A DNA stretch of 64,000 nucleotides. It comes from Nitrospirota bacterium. GTDB lineage: Bacteria; Nitrospirota; Nitrospiria; Nitrospirales; Nitrospiraceae. The notes beneath the pieces are model-generated. The model was given only the letters and a program-made list of their open reading frames with translations, made no database searches and was not told the origin of the DNA. The position numbers and the translations under genes were made by a program. The DNA lies in assembly GCA_004296885.1 (NCBI GenBank), contig SCVN01000008.1, positions 1-64,000 of the forward strand, given 5' to 3'. Each line of letters opens with the position of its first letter. Position 1 is the first letter of the stretch. Shown one piece after another: positions 6,140 through 13,628 of this stretch.

Positions 6140-7972
6140 TCATGGGGCGACTTCCGGCCGCACCGCGGCCTTTTGCACGTGCATGTCCTTCAGTTGGGCG
6201 TTCAGATCGCGCCACTCCTCCAGCCGGCCCTCCCGCTCCGCCGCGCGGAGCCTGGCGATCAAGTCGCGCTCGGCCGCCTCGCGCTGTTTGCGTCCCATTA
6301 ATTCCAGGCACCCGCGGATATGGGCCTCTTCGTCGTCATACTGCTGTTCCATCAGAGACAGTTGGGTGGCCATGGGGGCGCAGGCCTCGTCGGCCATTGC
6401 CTCGTCCAGCACCGCCCGCACGAGCACCCGCCCGTCCTTGCCGCGATGCTTCAGGCCCAGTTCGGCCAAGCGCCGGCAGGCGGGCACGCTGAAGGCGGCG
6501 GCGTCCAGGGCTTGCAAATGCTCGGCGCGCAGCCGTCCCTGGAGCAGCAGAAACGCCAGGTCCCGCTCCTCCGGCGACCCCTTGAAAGGCCCCGGCGGCG
6601 CGGGCGGAACCGGCGCCGCCGGCTTGCGCGCCCCCTTGCGTTCGTCGCGCGCGAGCAATTCCGGGTAGCGCTCGATCAGGCGCGACTGGTTGATCCCCAG
6701 CCGCTCCGCCACCAGCTTGAGGCATTCCTCCTTGGCCAGTCGGTGGCTCGTCTTCTGGAGGATGCGCAGGATTTCGTCCACGCTCCGGATACGGTCCTCG
6801 ATCGAGCTCGAGCCGGCCTTCTCCAGGCTGTGCGCGACGGAAAAGTCCAGCAGGCTTGGCGCCTGCTCTTGCAGCCGCGCGAAGGTCTCCGGCCCCTGCT
6901 TCCGGATGAACGTGTCCGGATCGTCCCCGTCCGGCAGCGACACCACCGTCACGCCGATCCCGCTGTCCACGAACAGGTCCAGCGTCCGCAGAGCCGCCCG
7001 CACGCCCGCTTCGTCCGGATCGAACAGCAGCACCACCTTCGTGACGTAGCGCCGGATCGTCCGCACATGATCGGGCGTCAGGGCCGTGCCGAGCGTCGCG
7101 ACCACGTTCGTGATCCCCGCCTGGTGCAAGGCGATCGCGTCGAAATAGCCCTCGACGATGACCAGCCGGTCCAGCTTGCCCGCCGACTCGCGCGCCTTCT
7201 CCAGCAGGTAGAGCGCCCGGCCCTTGTTGAAGAGCGGCGTCTCCGGCGAATTGAGGTATTTGGGCATCCCCTCGCCCAGGATGCGCCCGCCGAAGCCGAT
7301 CACCTTCTTGCGCAGGTCGCAGATCGGAAACATCACCCGCTGGCGAAACTTGTCGTAGTAGCCGGACACATCCTTGGGGTTCCGCCCCCCGCTTTCTTTC
7401 TGGGTGATCAGGCCGCCGGCCACAAGGTCCGGCAGCGTAAAGCCCTCTTTCAGCAGATGCTTCAACAGGCCGTCCCAGGCCTGGGGCGCATAGCCGAAGC
7501 CGAACGTATGCAGCGTCGCCTGCGCCATGCCTCGCTCGTCCAGGTAAGCCCGCGCCGACGCGCCCCCCTCGCCCTCGTGCAGATTACGCGCAAACCAGGC
7601 CTGCGCCGCCTCGTTCAGCCGCTCCAGTTTCTCGCGGCTGCCCGCATCCGGCGAGGGACGCCCGCTCGGCGCCGCCGGCACCTCGATGCCGGCCTTGCGG
7701 GCCAGCTCGCGCACCGTCTCGGGGAAGCTCGTCCCCTCGATCTTCATCAGGAAGCTGAAGACGTTCCCGCCCGCCCCGCAGCCGAAGCAGTGAAAGATCT
7801 GCCGGGAGGAACTGACCGTGAAGGAGGGGGTCTTTTCGCTGTGAAACGGGCAGAGCCCCTTGAAGTGCTGGCCGGCCTTGGACAGGGTCACGTAGCCGGA
7901 CACCACGTCGAGGATATCGATGCGGTCTTTGACCTGTTCGATGATGTCCTGGGGGATGAGACCGAGGCTCAC
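6140..7972 (-). CDS. dnaG: DNA primase
   Basis: 610 residues, full length. Synthesises RNA primers at the replication fork. The CHC2 zinc-binding domain is at 41-65 (C41PFH44, C62FGC65). The TOPRIM catalytic core has [12 protein letters not shown] and the metal-binding [11 protein letters not shown]-terminal helicase-binding region follows. It starts with GTG at 7972 ([10 protein letters not shown]). It is the first gene of the pair with rpoD. No rpsU gene lies upstream in the 540-bp gap. Confidence 0.97.
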
Positions 7973-8515
7973 GCCGGTTGCGCTCCTGTGCTGCCAGTTG
8001 TCGTGAACCGAATCGGAAGGGCTTGAAATTCCTGAACTATCGACCGGTCAATGTAACAGACGAGAAAAGACTAAGTCAATGAGGGGAAGAGGCATAAGAG
8101 ACAGCCTATTCGGCCCTCTGCTTGCAGGGCCAGCACGGCTGAAAAATCGACGCGGAGCAACCAGGTTATTCCCTTGCTCCCGCAGCGCGCGGCCTCGGAA
8201 GGAGGGGGCAACTGCGGCCGCTATCCCCCGTGCTCGCGCATCGCGCACTTCAGAAAGTGCTCGCTGGACGCGCGCATAGGGGACAGCCAGGCCGCCTCGC
8301 CAAACGCAAGATGAGCGAGATCATGGCAGTGTCTGTCCTGCTCGCTTGAGGCGGATGGGTGAGAACGGTAGCGCGCAATGCGGACCGAGCAGGCCGCCCG
8401 TGAGGAAGGCCGGTCGTAGTTCAGAGAGGGGGAGGGAAGGGGTGGAGGAAAAAGGCGCCTTGAGCCTTTTCCCTCCTCGGGAACGTCTGAGTGGAAAGAC
8501 CTCTGATGCTCTCCA
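7973..8515. other. Gene-free region upstream of dnaG, with one repeat copy
   Basis: No convincing gene: the short ORFs here lack family features. It contains the dnaG leader (a TTGACC box near 8045 on the minus strand without a good -10) and, at 8224-8276, a copy of a structured repeat that recurs inverted at 13575-13628. A degenerate relative may lie at ~8174-8215. Confidence 0.6.
8224..8276 (+). repeat. Structured intergenic repeat, copy A
   Basis: A ~53-nt unit that starts TCCCCCGTGCTCGCGCA and ends TGGACGCGCGCA. It has a central hairpin with 6-bp arms (GCACTT / AAGTGC) and a CAGA loop. A second copy is inverted at 13575-13628. In that copy the arms differ (GGCC / GGCC) but still pair, which suggests selection on structure. 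Confidence 0.7.
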
Positions 8516-8797
8516 TCAATCGCCGTAGTGAGTCCTGGCCCGTTCGATATAGATAGTCTTCGTCGTCTCGTCGATGGAATAGACGATCCGGTCTTGATAT
8601 GTGAGCCGGTATGAATAACTGCCGGCCAAGTCGCCGATCAGTCGCTTCCCCTCGTAGGGATCGTGGGCGAGGACGTTCAGGAGAATCGTACGGAGCTTCT
8701 GTTTGAGTTTCGGTGTGAGGGTGTCGATGTCTTTTTTAGCTTGTCGAGTGATCCGGATCGTATACGGTGCGGCCTCAGCCACCGAAGACGTCCTCAA
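8516..8797 (-). CDS. RelE/ParE-family toxin
   Basis: 93 residues. RelE-fold toxin, expected to be an mRNA interferase acting at the ribosome. YTIRITRQAKKDIDTL near the N-terminus is typical; GDLAGSYSYRLTYQDRIVYSID gives the central beta strands and Arg residues, and the end is IYIERARTHYGD (YoeB/RelE-like). It overlaps its antitoxin gene by 23 nt, so the two are translationally coupled. It belongs to the accessory island. Confidence 0.88.
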   Translation of the reverse strand: MRTSSVAEAAPYTIRITRQAKKDIDTLTPKLKQKLRTILLNVLAHDPYEGKRLIGDLAGSYSYRLTYQDRIVYSIDETTKTIYIERARTHYGD

Positions 8798-9029
8798 GCG
8801 AGTAGGTCTGGCCTTTCTTGATCTCCCGTTTGGCTTTGCGGACGCCTTTCAACAGGCCGGGTGTGGAGAGTAATTCCAGGGTCTCGATCAAACTGGAGTA
8901 ATCCTCCTCCGACATGAGGACCACGTCGCCGCGCCGGGAGACGACGCGAAACTGCCGGTGCCCATCCACCGCTTTCGTGATGACTTCGAAGAGATTGCTT
9001 CGGGCCTTGGTCGCGCTCAGGGTTTGCAT
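8775..9029 (-). CDS. Phd/YefM-family antitoxin
   Basis: 84 residues. It begins MQTLSATKARSNLFEVITKA, the DNA-binding N-terminal half of Phd/YefM antitoxins (S-x-x-x-A-R-x-x-L/F). RRGDVVLMSEEDYSSLIETLELL follows, and a C-terminal segment (YSLEDVFGG) would wrap the toxin. It lies first in the operon and autoregulates in this family. The palindrome CCTGTACAGG just upstream of the start is a candidate operator. Confidence 0.9.
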   Translation of the reverse strand: MQTLSATKARSNLFEVITKAVDGHRQFRVVSRRGDVVLMSEEDYSSLIETLELLSTPGLLKGVRKAKREIKKGQTYSLEDVFGG

Positions 9030-9040
9030 CGTTCCTCCGA

Positions 9041-9061
9041 CCTGTACAGGATTCTGTACGG
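9041..9061. promoter_or_regulatory. Candidate operator of the toxin-antitoxin pair
   Basis: A perfect 10-bp palindrome, CCTGTACAGG, followed after 3 nt by a second CTGTAC half-site. It lies between the predicted -10 and the antitoxin ATG, where Phd-type antitoxins usually bind. Confidence 0.45.
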
Positions 9062-9064
9062 GTT

Positions 9065-9093
9065 AGCTTAACAGATCATCGCACCGGATGCAA
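9065..9093 (-). promoter_or_regulatory. Predicted promoter of the toxin-antitoxin pair
   Basis: TTGCAT, a 17-nt spacer, then TAAGCT on the minus strand, 36 nt upstream of the antitoxin ATG. Consensus match only. Confidence 0.45.
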
Positions 9094-9139
9094 CGAACCG
9101 GTTGTACGCAACGCTCCAGACAATGCGCAGGTGGCAGGG

Positions 9140-9340
9140 TCAGCTGTTGGAGTAATCCGATTCCAGCGGGGCGATGTTGTACTGGAGTTCCAGGTCGAAT
9201 TCGTCGATCAGCCCGTTCACCACCGCCGCGCCATGGTCCGACCGCACCTCGTTGATCACCAACTCGATCGCATTCGCCGCATGCTGGCCATACTGCTCAA
9301 TCGCCGCCTCTATCCTCTGCCTGGCTTCTTCGAGTTTCAT
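9140..9340 (-). CDS. Small hypothetical protein
   Basis: 66 residues, mostly predicted helical (KLEEARQRIEAAIEQYGQHA), ending in an acidic, polar tail. I do not recognise a family. It lies between the toxin-antitoxin pair and the ImmA gene, on the same strand. The amino-acid make-up is protein-like and the start has a GGAG about 10 nt upstream, but the evidence is limited. Confidence 0.45.
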   Translation of the reverse strand: MKLEEARQRIEAAIEQYGQHAANAIELVINEVRSDHGAAVVNGLIDEFDLELQYNIAPLESDYSNS

Positions 9341-9497
9341 ATCGCGCCACTCCCCCCTACTCTCTCAACAAAAAGATTCCCTCACGCAAACCTTTGGCTG
9401 AACCGTCAGCTCAGCATCGTTACACTATAATCGATGCCAGCGGAGAACCGCCAACAGGATTCCATCTGCTCGCTGCGTGCGATCCTCTGTGCTCCCC

Positions 9498-10079
9498 TCA
9501 GCCTCTCGACCTCATCCGTCGCCACGACTCCAATTGCTTCAATACACCCGAATGATGGGCACGCCAAGAGAACAAGGCGCGGCTCACACCGAAATGTTGT
9601 GCACCGTCCATCTCACTACCCCCACCTCGTAACCAATTCAGCACCCCTTCCCTCGGAACTAACAGTGCTCCAGCTAACCAGTCCGCCTCGTCTTCATACT
9701 GAGAATTCCAATGTCGACAACCTCCGTCGCCGAGAACAGGGCTTGGGGAATGCTCAAGAATCGTGTGGGATAGCTCATGCGCCAAGGAATTCGCCTGGCG
9801 TCCAGGCGGATGCCGATGATTGTATACGATTAACCTATGCGTACCATCAATAACGGTCAGAGCAGAGAACTTCGCACTTTCCCCCTGGATAAGCTGAATC
9901 TCTTCATCGGCAGCGCCAGATGCCCTTAGAGCGAGAAGTGAAATGACCGGGATCTCTAGATAGGCGGCGAGCGATAAAGCGTCGAGGCGATCTACAAGAG
10001 CAAGGCCAAGCTCGACGCGCACCTCAAGAGAAATCCGCTCAGCTTGTGCCTTAAAACCATGCGGGAGCTTCTTGGACAT
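9498..10079 (-). CDS. ImmA/IrrE-family metallo-endopeptidase
   Basis: 193 residues. The zinc site is complete: HELSH at 101-105 (His101, Glu102, His105), with a likely third ligand Glu131 in YEDEADWLAGALL. Family members (ImmA of ICEBs1, IrrE/PprI of Deinococcus) cleave a partner XRE repressor and so release its targets. It starts 3 nt after the XRE gene ends, so the two are co-transcribed, and it faces away from the ubiquitin-like operon. By inference it could derepress that operon upon a stress or phage signal. Confidence 0.88.
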   Translation of the reverse strand: MSKKLPHGFKAQAERISLEVRVELGLALVDRLDALSLAAYLEIPVISLLALRASGAADEEIQLIQGESAKFSALTVIDGTHRLIVYNHRHPPGRQANSLAHELSHTILEHSPSPVLGDGGCRHWNSQYEDEADWLAGALLVPREGVLNWLRGGGSEMDGAQHFGVSRALFSWRAHHSGVLKQLESWRRMRSRG

Positions 10080-10082
10080 CTA

Positions 10083-10439
10083 TCATTTCTTCCCTTTCAA
10101 ATGGCGATAAGCGGCCTGAATGATTTGCTCAAGCGCCGCAGCCTCACCGGGAGAGACGTTTTTTGCTGAACGCAAATAACTAGAAATCATCGCCATTGGT
10201 TCGGCATCCCTTATCTTTTTTCGTTCGGAATGAGTGAATTTATCAGCCGTTTCCCCAAGCCACCTCAAGAGCGTTGCAAAGGTATCAACATCTGGCCGTC
10301 TACCCTGAGCCATCCGTGTGAAAGTTGACGGAGCAATCTGTAGTTCGCCAGCCAATTCTCGCCAACTCAGCTCCTTGCTTTGCCGCTTACCGTCTACAGC
10401 GTCATAGAGAGCCCTCACATCGACGGTAGTTTCTGCCAT
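10083..10439 (-). CDS. XRE-family helix-turn-helix regulator
   Basis: 118 residues. A helix-turn-helix lies at about 25-60 (LSWRELAGELQIAPSTFTRM, then VDTFATLLRWLG), typical of Cro/CI-type repressors. The C-terminal part (GEAAALEQIIQAAYRHLKGKK) is helical. The ATG at 10439 has an AAGGGGGT ribosome site; an upstream in-frame extension is rich in Cys and not family-like. It is paired with the ImmA peptidase and divergent from the bil-like operon. Two near-identical 19-bp repeats in the shared upstream region are candidate operators. Confidence 0.87.
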   Translation of the reverse strand: MAETTVDVRALYDAVDGKRQSKELSWRELAGELQIAPSTFTRMAQGRRPDVDTFATLLRWLGETADKFTHSERKKIRDAEPMAMISSYLRSAKNVSPGEAAALEQIIQAAYRHLKGKK

Positions 10440-10475
10440 ATAGCACCCCCTTTCGATGCCACCTTTTAGCATCGC

Positions 10476-10542
10476 CGTTCGACACTTGCAACACAAAACT
10501 TGCAGTGCTATGATATGATATGGCGTTCGATACTTGCAACAC
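10476..10542. promoter_or_regulatory. Paired 19-bp direct repeats in the divergent control region
   Basis: Two copies of CGTTCGAYACTTGCAACAC at 10476-10494 and 10524-10542 differ at one base and are 48 bp apart. Each contains the palindrome TTGCAA. A partial third copy (ACTTGCAGTGC) lies between them. The position between the XRE gene and the ubiquitin-like operon suggests a repressor binding region. Confidence 0.55.
10510..10539 (-). promoter_or_regulatory. Predicted promoter of the XRE-ImmA pair
   Basis: TTGCAA (10534-10539), an 18-nt spacer and TATCAT (10510-10515) on the minus strand. The -35 lies inside the second 19-bp repeat, so a repressor bound there would block its own promoter. 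Confidence 0.4.
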
Positions 10543-10670
10543 ATGGGGCGTGATCAATACGAACACCATGAGAAAGACCGTCCGATCAACAACTACCATG
10601 CCGCAAGGAGGTGAAGAGTGGGCATGGCCAACAGGGAAGCGAGAACACAGACACTGCCCAGGAGGCACCC

Positions 10671-11153
10671 GTGAACATTTCAATTGACTTAGAAGACAAG
10701 AATGGAGAGCACCGATCAGTAAGGGTCGATGCCTCGGAACAGGAAAACGTGGAAACCATTGCCGCTCGGGTTGCCACACAATTCGGTCTCAACCCGTCCG
10801 AAGTAATCGAGGGGCTTGGGACAGACGATGTCGCCTTCACGAAATACGACACTGTCGGCGACTGTATCCGTCACGGCCACAAGTGGCACTGCCGACGCAG
10901 GCAGACATGCGTCGAAGTCCATTATCAAAGTGAAGAACCGGCTCGGCACTTCTTCAATCCGAAGAGCCCCTGGCGGGTTGTGCACGAGTGGGCGTGCCGA
11001 CACTTCAAGGTCGCAGCCTCGATGTGCCGGGACCTTGAGCTCTTTGCAGGGGCCCCGACGGGTAGCCCTCTGAATGAGAACTTGCCGATCGGCACGTCCC
11101 ACGACTGCAAAATTGTTTGGCTCGCTAAGCCGGGCCCTGAGCCCAATGGCTGA
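10671..11153 (+). CDS. Ubiquitin-like modifier with two beta-grasp domains (BilA-like)
   Basis: 160 residues from the GTG at 10671, which has AGGAGG 5 nt upstream; an in-frame GTG at 10611 overlaps its own ribosome site and is less likely. Two beta-grasp-like units are visible. Residues ~1-75 read as strand, strand, helix (VNISIDLEDKNGEHRSVRVD, then VETIAARVATQFGL). Residues ~80-155 repeat the plan (VEVHYQS, WRVVHEWACRHFKV, LNENLPIG, KIVWLAK). It ends in Gly160, as expected for a conjugable modifier, with nothing after it. A tandem modifier resembles ISG15 and hence BilA. It is first in a four-gene overlapping operon with E2, JAMM and E1 genes; the context drives this call. Confidence 0.75.
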   Translation: MNISIDLEDKNGEHRSVRVDASEQENVETIAARVATQFGLNPSEVIEGLGTDDVAFTKYDTVGDCIRHGHKWHCRRRQTCVEVHYQSEEPARHFFNPKSPWRVVHEWACRHFKVAASMCRDLELFAGAPTGSPLNENLPIGTSHDCKIVWLAKPGPEPNG

Positions 11154-11601
11154 GCAACCCGCAGACCAACTCCAGTGCGATCTGGAGTCGACGGAGTTCC
11201 GGCTCGGGGCCGAGCAACGTTTCTGGACGTTGCTCGACCGCCAGGGCGATCTTGTTTATCTGGAGTTCCACGCCAGAGACAACATGGACTACGTAATGCA
11301 GCTGGAGTGCGCCGGATATGGGCAACAAGCCATCGGCGGAAAATTCATTGATCCCCAAAGTAAGGTTTGCATATCGAGCGCATGGCCACGCGGGGATGGA
11401 ACATTTAATGGGTGGGTGAAATGGGATGCCAATAACTTGTTCATCTGTTGGCCCGGCGATCGCTACGGCATCCAGCATCACCAAGAATGGGCAGCACAAC
11501 AGTTATGGAGGAAACCGCCAAGCCCGATTGTAGCCTACGCAGACTTTATCAGGAGGTTACTATGGAACAGAGCATGCGGTTACACAGGACGGGCAGGATA
11601 A
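11146..11601 (+). CDS. E2-like ubiquitin-conjugating protein (BilB-like)
   Basis: 151 residues. It would carry the modifier as a thioester and pass it to the target. A beta-sheet region (LVYLEFHARDNMDYVMQLEC) is followed by WVKWDANNLFICWPGDR, where Cys101 sits at the end of a strand like the catalytic Cys of bacterial E2-fold proteins. A His-His-x-x-Trp helix start (QHHQEW) follows. The eukaryotic HPN motif is not present. The ATG at 11146 overlaps the modifier gene by 8 nt (ATGGCTGA), indicating coupling. The call rests on the Cys context plus gene order; sequence similarity to classical E2 is weak. Confidence 0.7.
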   Translation: MAEQPADQLQCDLESTEFRLGAEQRFWTLLDRQGDLVYLEFHARDNMDYVMQLECAGYGQQAIGGKFIDPQSKVCISSAWPRGDGTFNGWVKWDANNLFICWPGDRYGIQHHQEWAAQQLWRKPPSPIVAYADFIRRLLWNRACGYTGRAG

Positions 11602-12113
11602 ACTCATCGCTGATCGTTCCTCATCCGCTGTGGACCGATGTCTTGGAAACACTTCGTCAGCGGAGTGAAGGATGGCGAGAAAGTGCTTGCATCCTCATCG
11701 GCACAGCTTCTACGAACGGAGTTCGGGTCGCTGTTGATGCTATTTTCCATCATCGTCTCGCCGATGACCGCGCAACAGCCTTGTCCATTGAACTTCCTGA
11801 GCATGCGAAATTCAAGATGTATGCAGACCTCGCAAAGCGTCGATTATCCCCTGTGTCGTTGGTCCATACTCACCCAGAGGCATGGGTCGGGCTGAGCGTG
11901 GTTGATCAGAGCAACCGCATCTCATCAACCATTGGATTTTGGTCCATTGTGGTACCCCACTATGGAAGTCCTCCTTGGAACCTTGAGGAGATAGGCTTCC
12001 ATGTCCTTGAAGACAGCGGCTGGCGTGAGCTTACAGCAGAGGAACGTCTTGCTCATTTTCGCTTGGAGGAGCAGCCATGGAATGGTGGCAAGACCGTGTC
12101 GCTAATGGCGTAG
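11562..12113 (+). CDS. JAB/MPN-domain deubiquitinase-like peptidase (BilC-like)
   Basis: 183 residues with a complete JAMM zinc-protease motif: Glu40 (RESACILIG), then HTHP at 102-105 and Ser112-x-x-Asp115, giving the exact H-x-H-x7-S-x2-D spacing. This predicts an isopeptidase that removes or processes the modifier. The ATG at 11562 has AGGAGG 5 nt upstream and overlaps the E2 gene by 40 nt. Because the modifier already ends in Gly, removal from targets seems likelier than precursor processing. That is an inference. Confidence 0.87.
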   Translation: MEQSMRLHRTGRINSSLIVPHPLWTDVLETLRQRSEGWRESACILIGTASTNGVRVAVDAIFHHRLADDRATALSIELPEHAKFKMYADLAKRRLSPVSLVHTHPEAWVGLSVVDQSNRISSTIGFWSIVVPHYGSPPWNLEEIGFHVLEDSGWRELTAEERLAHFRLEEQPWNGGKTVSLMA

Positions 12114-13339
12114 CAAAGTCCGGAAGGGGACTCCTAACAGAGACAGAAGTTAAACGAGTCTTGGCGCAAGACGTCGCAATCTACGCCGACCCAAAACGTG
12201 CCACCGAAGAGGATCTTTGGCCTGGAATTTGGGCCCTGGCTGCGACTCTTTCTCGCCAATTCATGGGGCAAATTTATGTCGTTACTGGTCTCGACCGACC
12301 TCATGCGGCACCAGGCTCGTTGCCTTCTCGATGTGTTTTTACAGATCGCCCCCCGACATGCCGACTCACAGTAGGCTTGGGGCAAGCGGCATCTTCCCCT
12401 TCGGATGTGACATTGTGGGGAGACGCTCGGGGAAACCGCATTGCCTTCGGGCAGCATTTGCCTGGCGAAGTCGCTTCTCCTATTTCGGCATTTGCTGTTG
12501 CAGGCTACCTCTCATTTGCACTTTTAGCTTCCGCCGCAGGCTTTTCCACTCACAAGAAGAGATTCTGTCAAGGCACGTTAGAAGTAGGAAAAGTGAACCT
12601 TGCCGGACTCAGCATGCCGGAACAAAGCTTAGCCATCTTGGGTCTAGGACACCTCGGGAATACATACCTCGCACTCCTCTATTTCATCGCACAACAGCAG
12701 GGGAGTTTTCCTCAACTTCTTCTACTCGATCGAGGGGAAGATGGCGGCAGGCTGGAAAAGGCGAACTGGAAAACTCACGTGTTGCTGGACGAAAATCCGT
12801 CATGGGAAGGAGCCCTCAAGACCGAAATATTTTCCGAGCAATTAAAGGCAATTGGAATGCCTGTGGACGCGGACGCGCAAACCCTTCAGTGGGGATGGAA
12901 GAAGTCCGACGCCCATCCATCTATAGCACTGATGGGATTTGACACGTTTGAAGCCAGGCGCATGGCCATTGCCGGAGGGTATGAATGGCTAATTGATGCA
13001 GGGATTGGCTTGAGATTCGAGTGCCCTCGTATCACCTGGCATAGCCTTCCACCGGATAAAGAACTCGGCAAACGCATTTTCGAAGAGAGGCCTCCCGCAG
13101 CCGTCCCCCTCATTCCTTTCGACAGCCCTTTGGCAAAAAGCTTGGATGATCCGTCCAATCCTTGCGGATGGGTAAAATCGTTCGACGGGATTAGTGCAGC
13201 TGCCCCCTGCATGGGCATCGTAGCGGCCGCTTACGCCTGGGCGGAGGTGTTGGAGGTCTGGGGGGGAGAACGTACCCCTTTGAAAGGGAGCGCTTACCTC
13301 TGGAGCCCCGGCATCCCTCCTTCAATCGAACCTCTATAG
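12077..13339 (+). CDS. E1-like ThiF-family adenylyltransferase (BilD-like)
   Basis: 420 residues. The Rossmann nucleotide-binding motif is ILGLGHLG at 187-194, with an acidic ribose ligand Asp218 (LLLLDRG) and KANWKTHVL, the counterpart of the E1 segment that holds the Asn/Arg adenylation residues. Near the C-terminus Cys378 in AAAPCMGIVAAAYAWAEVL is a candidate thioester cysteine or helix-capping site; Cys363 is another candidate. About 170 N-terminal residues precede the Rossmann fold and I cannot name that domain. The ATG at 12077 (GGAGGAG upstream) overlaps the JAMM gene by 37 nt. It would activate the modifier's C-terminal Gly with ATP. Confidence 0.85.
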   Translation: MEWWQDRVANGVAKSGRGLLTETEVKRVLAQDVAIYADPKRATEEDLWPGIWALAATLSRQFMGQIYVVTGLDRPHAAPGSLPSRCVFTDRPPTCRLTVGLGQAASSPSDVTLWGDARGNRIAFGQHLPGEVASPISAFAVAGYLSFALLASAAGFSTHKKRFCQGTLEVGKVNLAGLSMPEQSLAILGLGHLGNTYLALLYFIAQQQGSFPQLLLLDRGEDGGRLEKANWKTHVLLDENPSWEGALKTEIFSEQLKAIGMPVDADAQTLQWGWKKSDAHPSIALMGFDTFEARRMAIAGGYEWLIDAGIGLRFECPRITWHSLPPDKELGKRIFEERPPAAVPLIPFDSPLAKSLDDPSNPCGWVKSFDGISAAAPCMGIVAAAYAWAEVLEVWGGERTPLKGSAYLWSPGIPPSIEPL

Positions 13340-13464
13340 CGTGCCAGGAGAGGAACTTTTTGCAGCTACCCCCCAGTTGCCAATGCATCTGCCGTCAGCT
13401 GGAGCAAGGAACGGCACCAAGCCACGTCTTGGGGTAAAGGGTTTCAACCAACCGATGGGGAGAG

Positions 13465-13522
13465 CAAAAAAACAAGGGGCCAGGCTTTGAAGCGGCCTGG
13501 CCCCGTCACTCTCTCTTTTTTA
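13465..13522. terminator. Bidirectional rho-independent terminator
   Basis: Stem GGGGCCAGGC / GCCTGGCCCC (13476-13504) with a short loop, a run of A on the left and CTTTTTTA on the right. It can stop both the bil-like operon (rightward) and the his-HIT run (leftward). Confidence 0.85.
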
Positions 13523-13574
13523 GTCTCGGCTAAACGTTTTTCTCTTCAAGGGGTGGACTGGTTGATCCCCTAAC

Positions 13575-13628
13575 TGCGCGCGTCCAACGAGGGCCTTCTG
13601 CGGCCGCGCGTTGCGCGAGCACGGGGGA
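13575..13628 (-). repeat. Structured intergenic repeat, copy B (inverted)
   Basis: Read on the minus strand it starts TCCCCCGTGCTCGCGCA and ends TGGACGCGCGCA like copy A at 8224-8276. The central hairpin has different arms (GGCC / GGCC). The two copies bracket the accessory island in opposite orientation. Confidence 0.7.

Follow-up and report, generated by a model that had tools for sequence, protein, structure and literature searches.

The window analyzed here, a 64,000-nucleotide stretch of contig SCVN01000008.1 from a Nitrospirota bacterium, carries at positions 10671-13339 a modifier-E2-JAMM-E1 operon of four intact, overlapping, co-directional ORFs. It probably encodes a divergent, inducible ubiquitin-like conjugation system of the BilABCD type, most likely serving in antiphage defense. 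BilABCD (bacterial ISG15-like) antiphage systems are described by Millman 2022, Hor 2024 and Chambers 2024, as reported in PMC13373217 and PMC11354881, the latter a review that covers their biochemistry. Judged by gene content, predicted folds and motifs, the operon is homologous to Bil and would be expected to work like it. It is a Bil-like variant and not a canonical Bil operon, in that every tested feature of Bil was found except the position of the E2 cysteine.

The four genes are bilA (10671..11153, + strand), bilB (11146..11601, +), bilC (11562..12113, +) and bilD (12077..13339, +). Their products matched the corresponding PADLOC profiles in the same order (BilA, 1.1e-8; BilB, 1.4e-17; BilC, 1.3e-20; BilD, 8.3e-28), which bears out the original prediction of four overlapping genes with the order and content of a Bil operon. 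The Pfam search returned DUF7665 for BilB (8.4e-18) and a weak Prok-JAB match for BilC, with no significant match for BilA and none of any kind for BilD. Since Pfam recognizes so little of BilA, BilC and BilD, the four proteins are highly divergent, as had been judged by eye from the letters; the E1 is at most 31% identical to any member found.

The start of bilA is best placed at GTG 10671, rather than at GTG 10611, which was given in the mechanical ORF list. This choice rests on an AGGAGG sequence (10660-10665) located five bases upstream, on the homologues, which begin at the same position, and on the AF2 model, in which the beta-grasp starts with the residue that GTG 10671 encodes, the 20 residues preceding it in the longer form being a lower-confidence coil. 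A possible leader ORF of 16 codons (10624..10674, +), preceded by a strong Shine-Dalgarno sequence (AAGGAGGTG), can also be read here, and its TGA overlaps the bilA GTG (GTGA), which suggests translational coupling. The AF2 model of BilA (pLDDT 86.6, using an alignment of homologues from the fetched loci) is a tandem beta-grasp with Foldseek matches to linear diubiquitin and ISG15, and its C-terminal half aligns with the bacterial Ubl 8tyz_B (Z 11.2). The terminal Gly (C-terminus ...PEPNG) is the sole invariant BilA column among 51-53 homologues. The modifier is thus modeled as the tandem beta-grasp protein ending in Gly that had been proposed.

The predicted active sites of the two downstream enzymes are complete. 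BilC is a JAMM/JAB peptidase with intact E40, H102/H104, S112 and D115, that is, the full H-x-H-x7-S-x2-D motif that had been read from the sequence (H102-x-H104-x7-S112-x2-D115), and a profile built from five sequences, including that of the window, matched the solved BilC 8tyx_B (4.5e-19). BilD is an E1 with an inactive-like N-terminal half, an adenylation domain that is active by motif, and an insert bearing Cys363. The GxGxxG motif noticed earlier is present as G189-x-G191-x-x-G194, together with D222, K248 and D289, and the active-site columns GGG-D-N-K-D-Cys are intact.

The unusual member of the operon is BilB. Its AF2 model (mean pLDDT 91, again with homologues from the fetched loci) has an E2 fold, the best Foldseek matches being the E2 chains 8tz0_C and 8tyz_C of bacterial E1-E2-Ubl complexes (E 1.5e-4 and 1.2e-3); many eukaryotic E2s come next by structural alignment (Z about 9-10). 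No match was obtained in a PDB sequence search with the BilB profile, so these solved relatives came from fold comparison only. An alignment of the window protein with 81 homologues located the E2 catalytic cysteine in a P-C-D-R motif, which was present in 61/82 operons; at this column the window BilB has Gly104 (P-G-D-R). In PMC11354881 the catalytic residue of BilB is named as Cys138 of a CEHH motif. The original prediction had described an E2-like protein with Cys101: the E2 fold and the residue itself are both there, but Cys101 lies off the catalytic column, three residues upstream and beside a two-residue insertion. Because Gly104 occupies the conserved column, Cys101 should not be taken as a normal catalytic residue, and a thioester relay of the standard kind cannot be assumed.

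Two readings of this protein compete. According to the first, the chemistry is that of canonical Bil with a shifted active site, Cys101 replacing the usual BilB cysteine. Its position directly after predicted strand 98-100, only three residues from the conserved column, is consistent with this, and the strand and Cys101 together resemble the ...IC... motif of eukaryotic E2s. On the other hand, Cys101 does not align with the catalytic cysteine, it is common to no relative in the aligned BilB set, and the conserved P-x-D-R...H frame puts Gly104 at the catalytic place. Cys101 could thus be, at best, a displaced nucleophile, and we consider the shifted site quite possible, though at somewhat less than even chances.

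According to the second reading, BilB is a non-catalytic E2 variant comparable to UEVs, acting as an adaptor or target selector, and BilA passes from Cys363 of the E1 to targets directly or by a non-cysteine intermediate. This is suggested by the other Bil loci. A single GTDB genome scan, seeded on an E1 motif and therefore not an unbiased census, yielded 80 loci, and in most of these all four genes are present in A-B-C-D order. The E2 Cys column is occupied by W, I, Y, L, F or S in 20 operons other than that of the window, several of which encode an E2 with zero or one cysteine in its entire length. Where the genes of such Cys-less operons are complete, the JAMM residues and the modifier Gly are intact, as is the E1 Cys in all but one (L005). 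Against this stand the presence of Cys101 near the Cys column in the window protein and the hypothetical nature of direct transfer in such operons. A non-catalytic BilB is accordingly a tentative explanation, which we are inclined to doubt.

Four tested members of the Cys-less set with intact E1s were called as BilB by PADLOC at 145-192 bits, and a fifth (L038) at 149 bits; the profile-defined BilB family already includes Cys-less members. A statement to this effect was not found in the literature searched, which comprised sources other than the primary Bil/Bub papers. We tentatively propose, while thinking the opposite somewhat more probable, that the window and about 17 operons outside the main P-C-D-R clade may form a Bil set that conjugates without the usual E2 cysteine, whether through a displaced nucleophile, through an intermediate other than a cysteine, or by transfer straight from the E1 to the target, often under the control of an M78 protease/HTH switch.

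Several other loci from the scan deserve mention. In L037 (189-668) the BilB protein has Ser at the catalytic Cys (PSDR), where the otherwise near-identical operons L040 and L041 have PCDR; this could be a genuine substitution or an artifact of a MAG with a coverage of 1. L005 (973-3322, -) encodes an E2, a JAMM protein and an E1; its BilB match is very weak (2.6e-4), the Cys columns of both the E2 and the E1 lack a cysteine, and by sequence it appears to be another diverged Bil-like type. L004 (1030-3048, -), from the same family as the organism of the window, is a small operon for one beta-grasp-like protein, a JAMM protein similar to BilC and a ThiF-type E1 that has no cysteine at the corresponding E1 column; no E2 was found in this operon.

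The window operon has no close relatives among the sequences searched. No homologue with more than 31% E1 identity was found in the GTDB scan, plasmids, 270 genomes of the class or phages: the best match in the 270 genomes was partial (30%), the only plasmid match was a partial E1 (25.6% identity), and neither viral contigs nor phages contained a close relative. The full trees group the window with the Cys-less operons, but in a careful analysis of 28 rows the AU test accepted it with either group. The window forms a very long single branch (5-8 changes per column), and for this reason neither placement is trusted. The suggestion that the operon may be a separate lineage holds in one sense: on sequence comparison the lineage appears to be a deep singleton with at most 31% E1 identity, which the 28-row AU test allows to branch with either group.

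Divergently transcribed from the operon is the XRE/ImmA pair of the original prediction. It consists of a CapP-like M78 (ImmA/IrrE) metalloprotease (9498..10079, -; Pfam Peptidase_M78, 8.3e-17; PADLOC capP, 1.6e-11), in which the HEXXH motif is present as HELSH, and an XRE-type, CapH-like HTH repressor (10083..10442, -), whose matches were weaker (Pfam HTH_31, 8.8e-5, below the gathering score; PADLOC capH, 0.019). The HTH gene most likely starts at ATG 10442, preceded by a Shine-Dalgarno-like AGGGGG, and its ORF is open to 10544. The intergenic region contains two divergent sigma-70-like sites, and the -35 element of each is covered by one of two 20-nt direct repeats that lie 48 bp apart. At the rightward promoter-like site (10486-10514) the -35 is overlapped by the first putative operator, CGTTCGACACTTGCAACACA (10476..10495, +), and at the leftward one (10539-10510) by the second, CGTTCGATACTTGCAACACA (10524..10543, +). 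The 19-nt repeat core has 2 matches in the 64 kb, against 0.02 expected.

A divergent CapP-like protease/HTH arrangement beside Bil-like operons recurs in further loci, a Mesorhizobium plasmid among them. In 47 of the 61 Cys-bearing loci, bilA is directly preceded by a gene for a fusion protein of 1,110-1,270 residues with an M78 domain; this fusion was found in only 2 of the 21 Cys-less loci, 12 of which have a shorter divergent M78 gene. Genes for such fusions lie at L034:581-3922 and L033:620-3907 and in about 45 other Bil loci, and the two examples checked had matches to UvrD helicase and, at the C-terminus, to a PD-(D/E)XK nuclease; a role of the M78-UvrD-PD-(D/E)XK fusion as a built-in DNA-damage sensor for Bil is plausible. 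The association between Cys-less E2s and the divergent M78/HTH pair (12/14 against 1/50 in classified loci) is descriptive, because joint changes of the two traits number no more than one or two on the tree. With only one or two independent contrasts, shared ancestry may account for the association.

The operon lies in an island with a GC content of 52-56% over about 8.5-13.4 kb vs 60-66% in the flanks. In a sister species (about 90-94% DNA identity) the sequences flanking the site are collinear with those of the window, and an Mrr type IV restriction gene takes the place of 9341-13411, which is missing. In another congener the same site holds an Avs3-like gene, whose match (1.6e-66) is to the C-terminal portion of Avs3a. 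The variable segment extends between a primase-like gene (6140-7972 in the window) and a HIT-family gene, and corresponds to window 8150-13600, L120:3676-4723 and L121:3619-5981. Within it, the window also carries a Phd/YefM-type antitoxin with a ParE/YoeB-like toxin (8516-9029, -); the sister species lacks 8484-9137. The site appears to be a defense hotspot in the genus, occupied by Bil, Mrr or Avs3-like genes, and for that reason an immune role of the operon is supported, not proved.

A stress-response or housekeeping modification system, with no part in antiphage defense, would be compatible with the related CapHP-linked Bub operons, for which phage defense is not demonstrated (PMC13373217), but the hotspot location and the presence of Mrr and Avs3-like genes at the site in congeners make it unlikely. 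That the cluster is a sulfur-carrier or cofactor operon (ThiF/MoeB-type) beside a chance JAMM neighbor is already contradicted and extremely improbable: the PDB sequences matched by the E1 profile do include ThiF, but the similarity of the E1 extends beyond ThiF/MoeB to BilD, the insert with the Cys is present, the modifier is tandem and ends in NG (not a single domain ending in GG), and an E2 fold is predicted. Neither of the outcomes named with the original prediction as counting against it was therefore observed: the first two proteins are modeled with tandem beta-grasp and E2 folds, and the matches of the E1 are not confined to sulfur-carrier adenylyltransferases.

For an inducible Bil-type defense system, we infer the regulation, conjugation, targets and phage defense as follows. 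The HTH protein would act at the two putative operators to repress bilA as well as its own gene. DNA damage or ssDNA arising in infection would switch on the M78 protease and lead to destruction of the repressor, by analogy with CapH+CapP, in which an ssDNA-activated protease cleaves the repressor (PMC13373217). BilD would adenylate the C-terminal Gly of BilA, which, already ending in Gly, needs no trimming, and would then carry BilA on Cys363. BilB, with its E2 fold, may help transfer BilA to targets, probably virion proteins as in the tested Bil systems; attachment to phage structural proteins is presumed from the literature on these other systems. BilC would remove or recycle the BilA tag. 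If Bil can function when its E2 has no cysteine at the conserved position, a three-step thioester relay is not obligatory in bacterial ubiquitin-like conjugation, and the Cys-less set offers natural variants for testing this requirement. A link between Bil and M78-protease damage switches would explain how potentially toxic tagging is kept off until infection.

The arrangement has counterparts in known systems. The Bil-like operon of the Mesorhizobium sp. AR02 plasmid pMspAR02c (L032) has the same gene order, a divergent HTH + ImmA pair and an E2 that is likewise without the canonical Cys (PYDR), although it has Tyr at this column and its E1 is only about 25% identical to that of the window. 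As with CapH+CapP of CBASS, Bub and other immune operons (PMC13373217), an HTH repressor and an M78 protease adjoin an immune operon, and the window protease shares the capP profile match (1.6e-11) and HEXXH motif. In contrast, the HTH protein matches capH only marginally (0.019), and the pair adjoins, in divergent orientation, a Bil-like operon. From BilABCD the window operon differs in the Gly at the catalytic Cys column of BilB, in the lack of the upstream M78-UvrD fusion gene present in 47/61 Cys-bearing loci, and in an E1 at most 31% identical to that of any member found. It shares with BilABCD the gene order, the tandem beta-grasp modifier with a C-terminal Gly, the E2 fold, the JAMM peptidase and the E1 with a Cys insert, and all four PADLOC profiles match.
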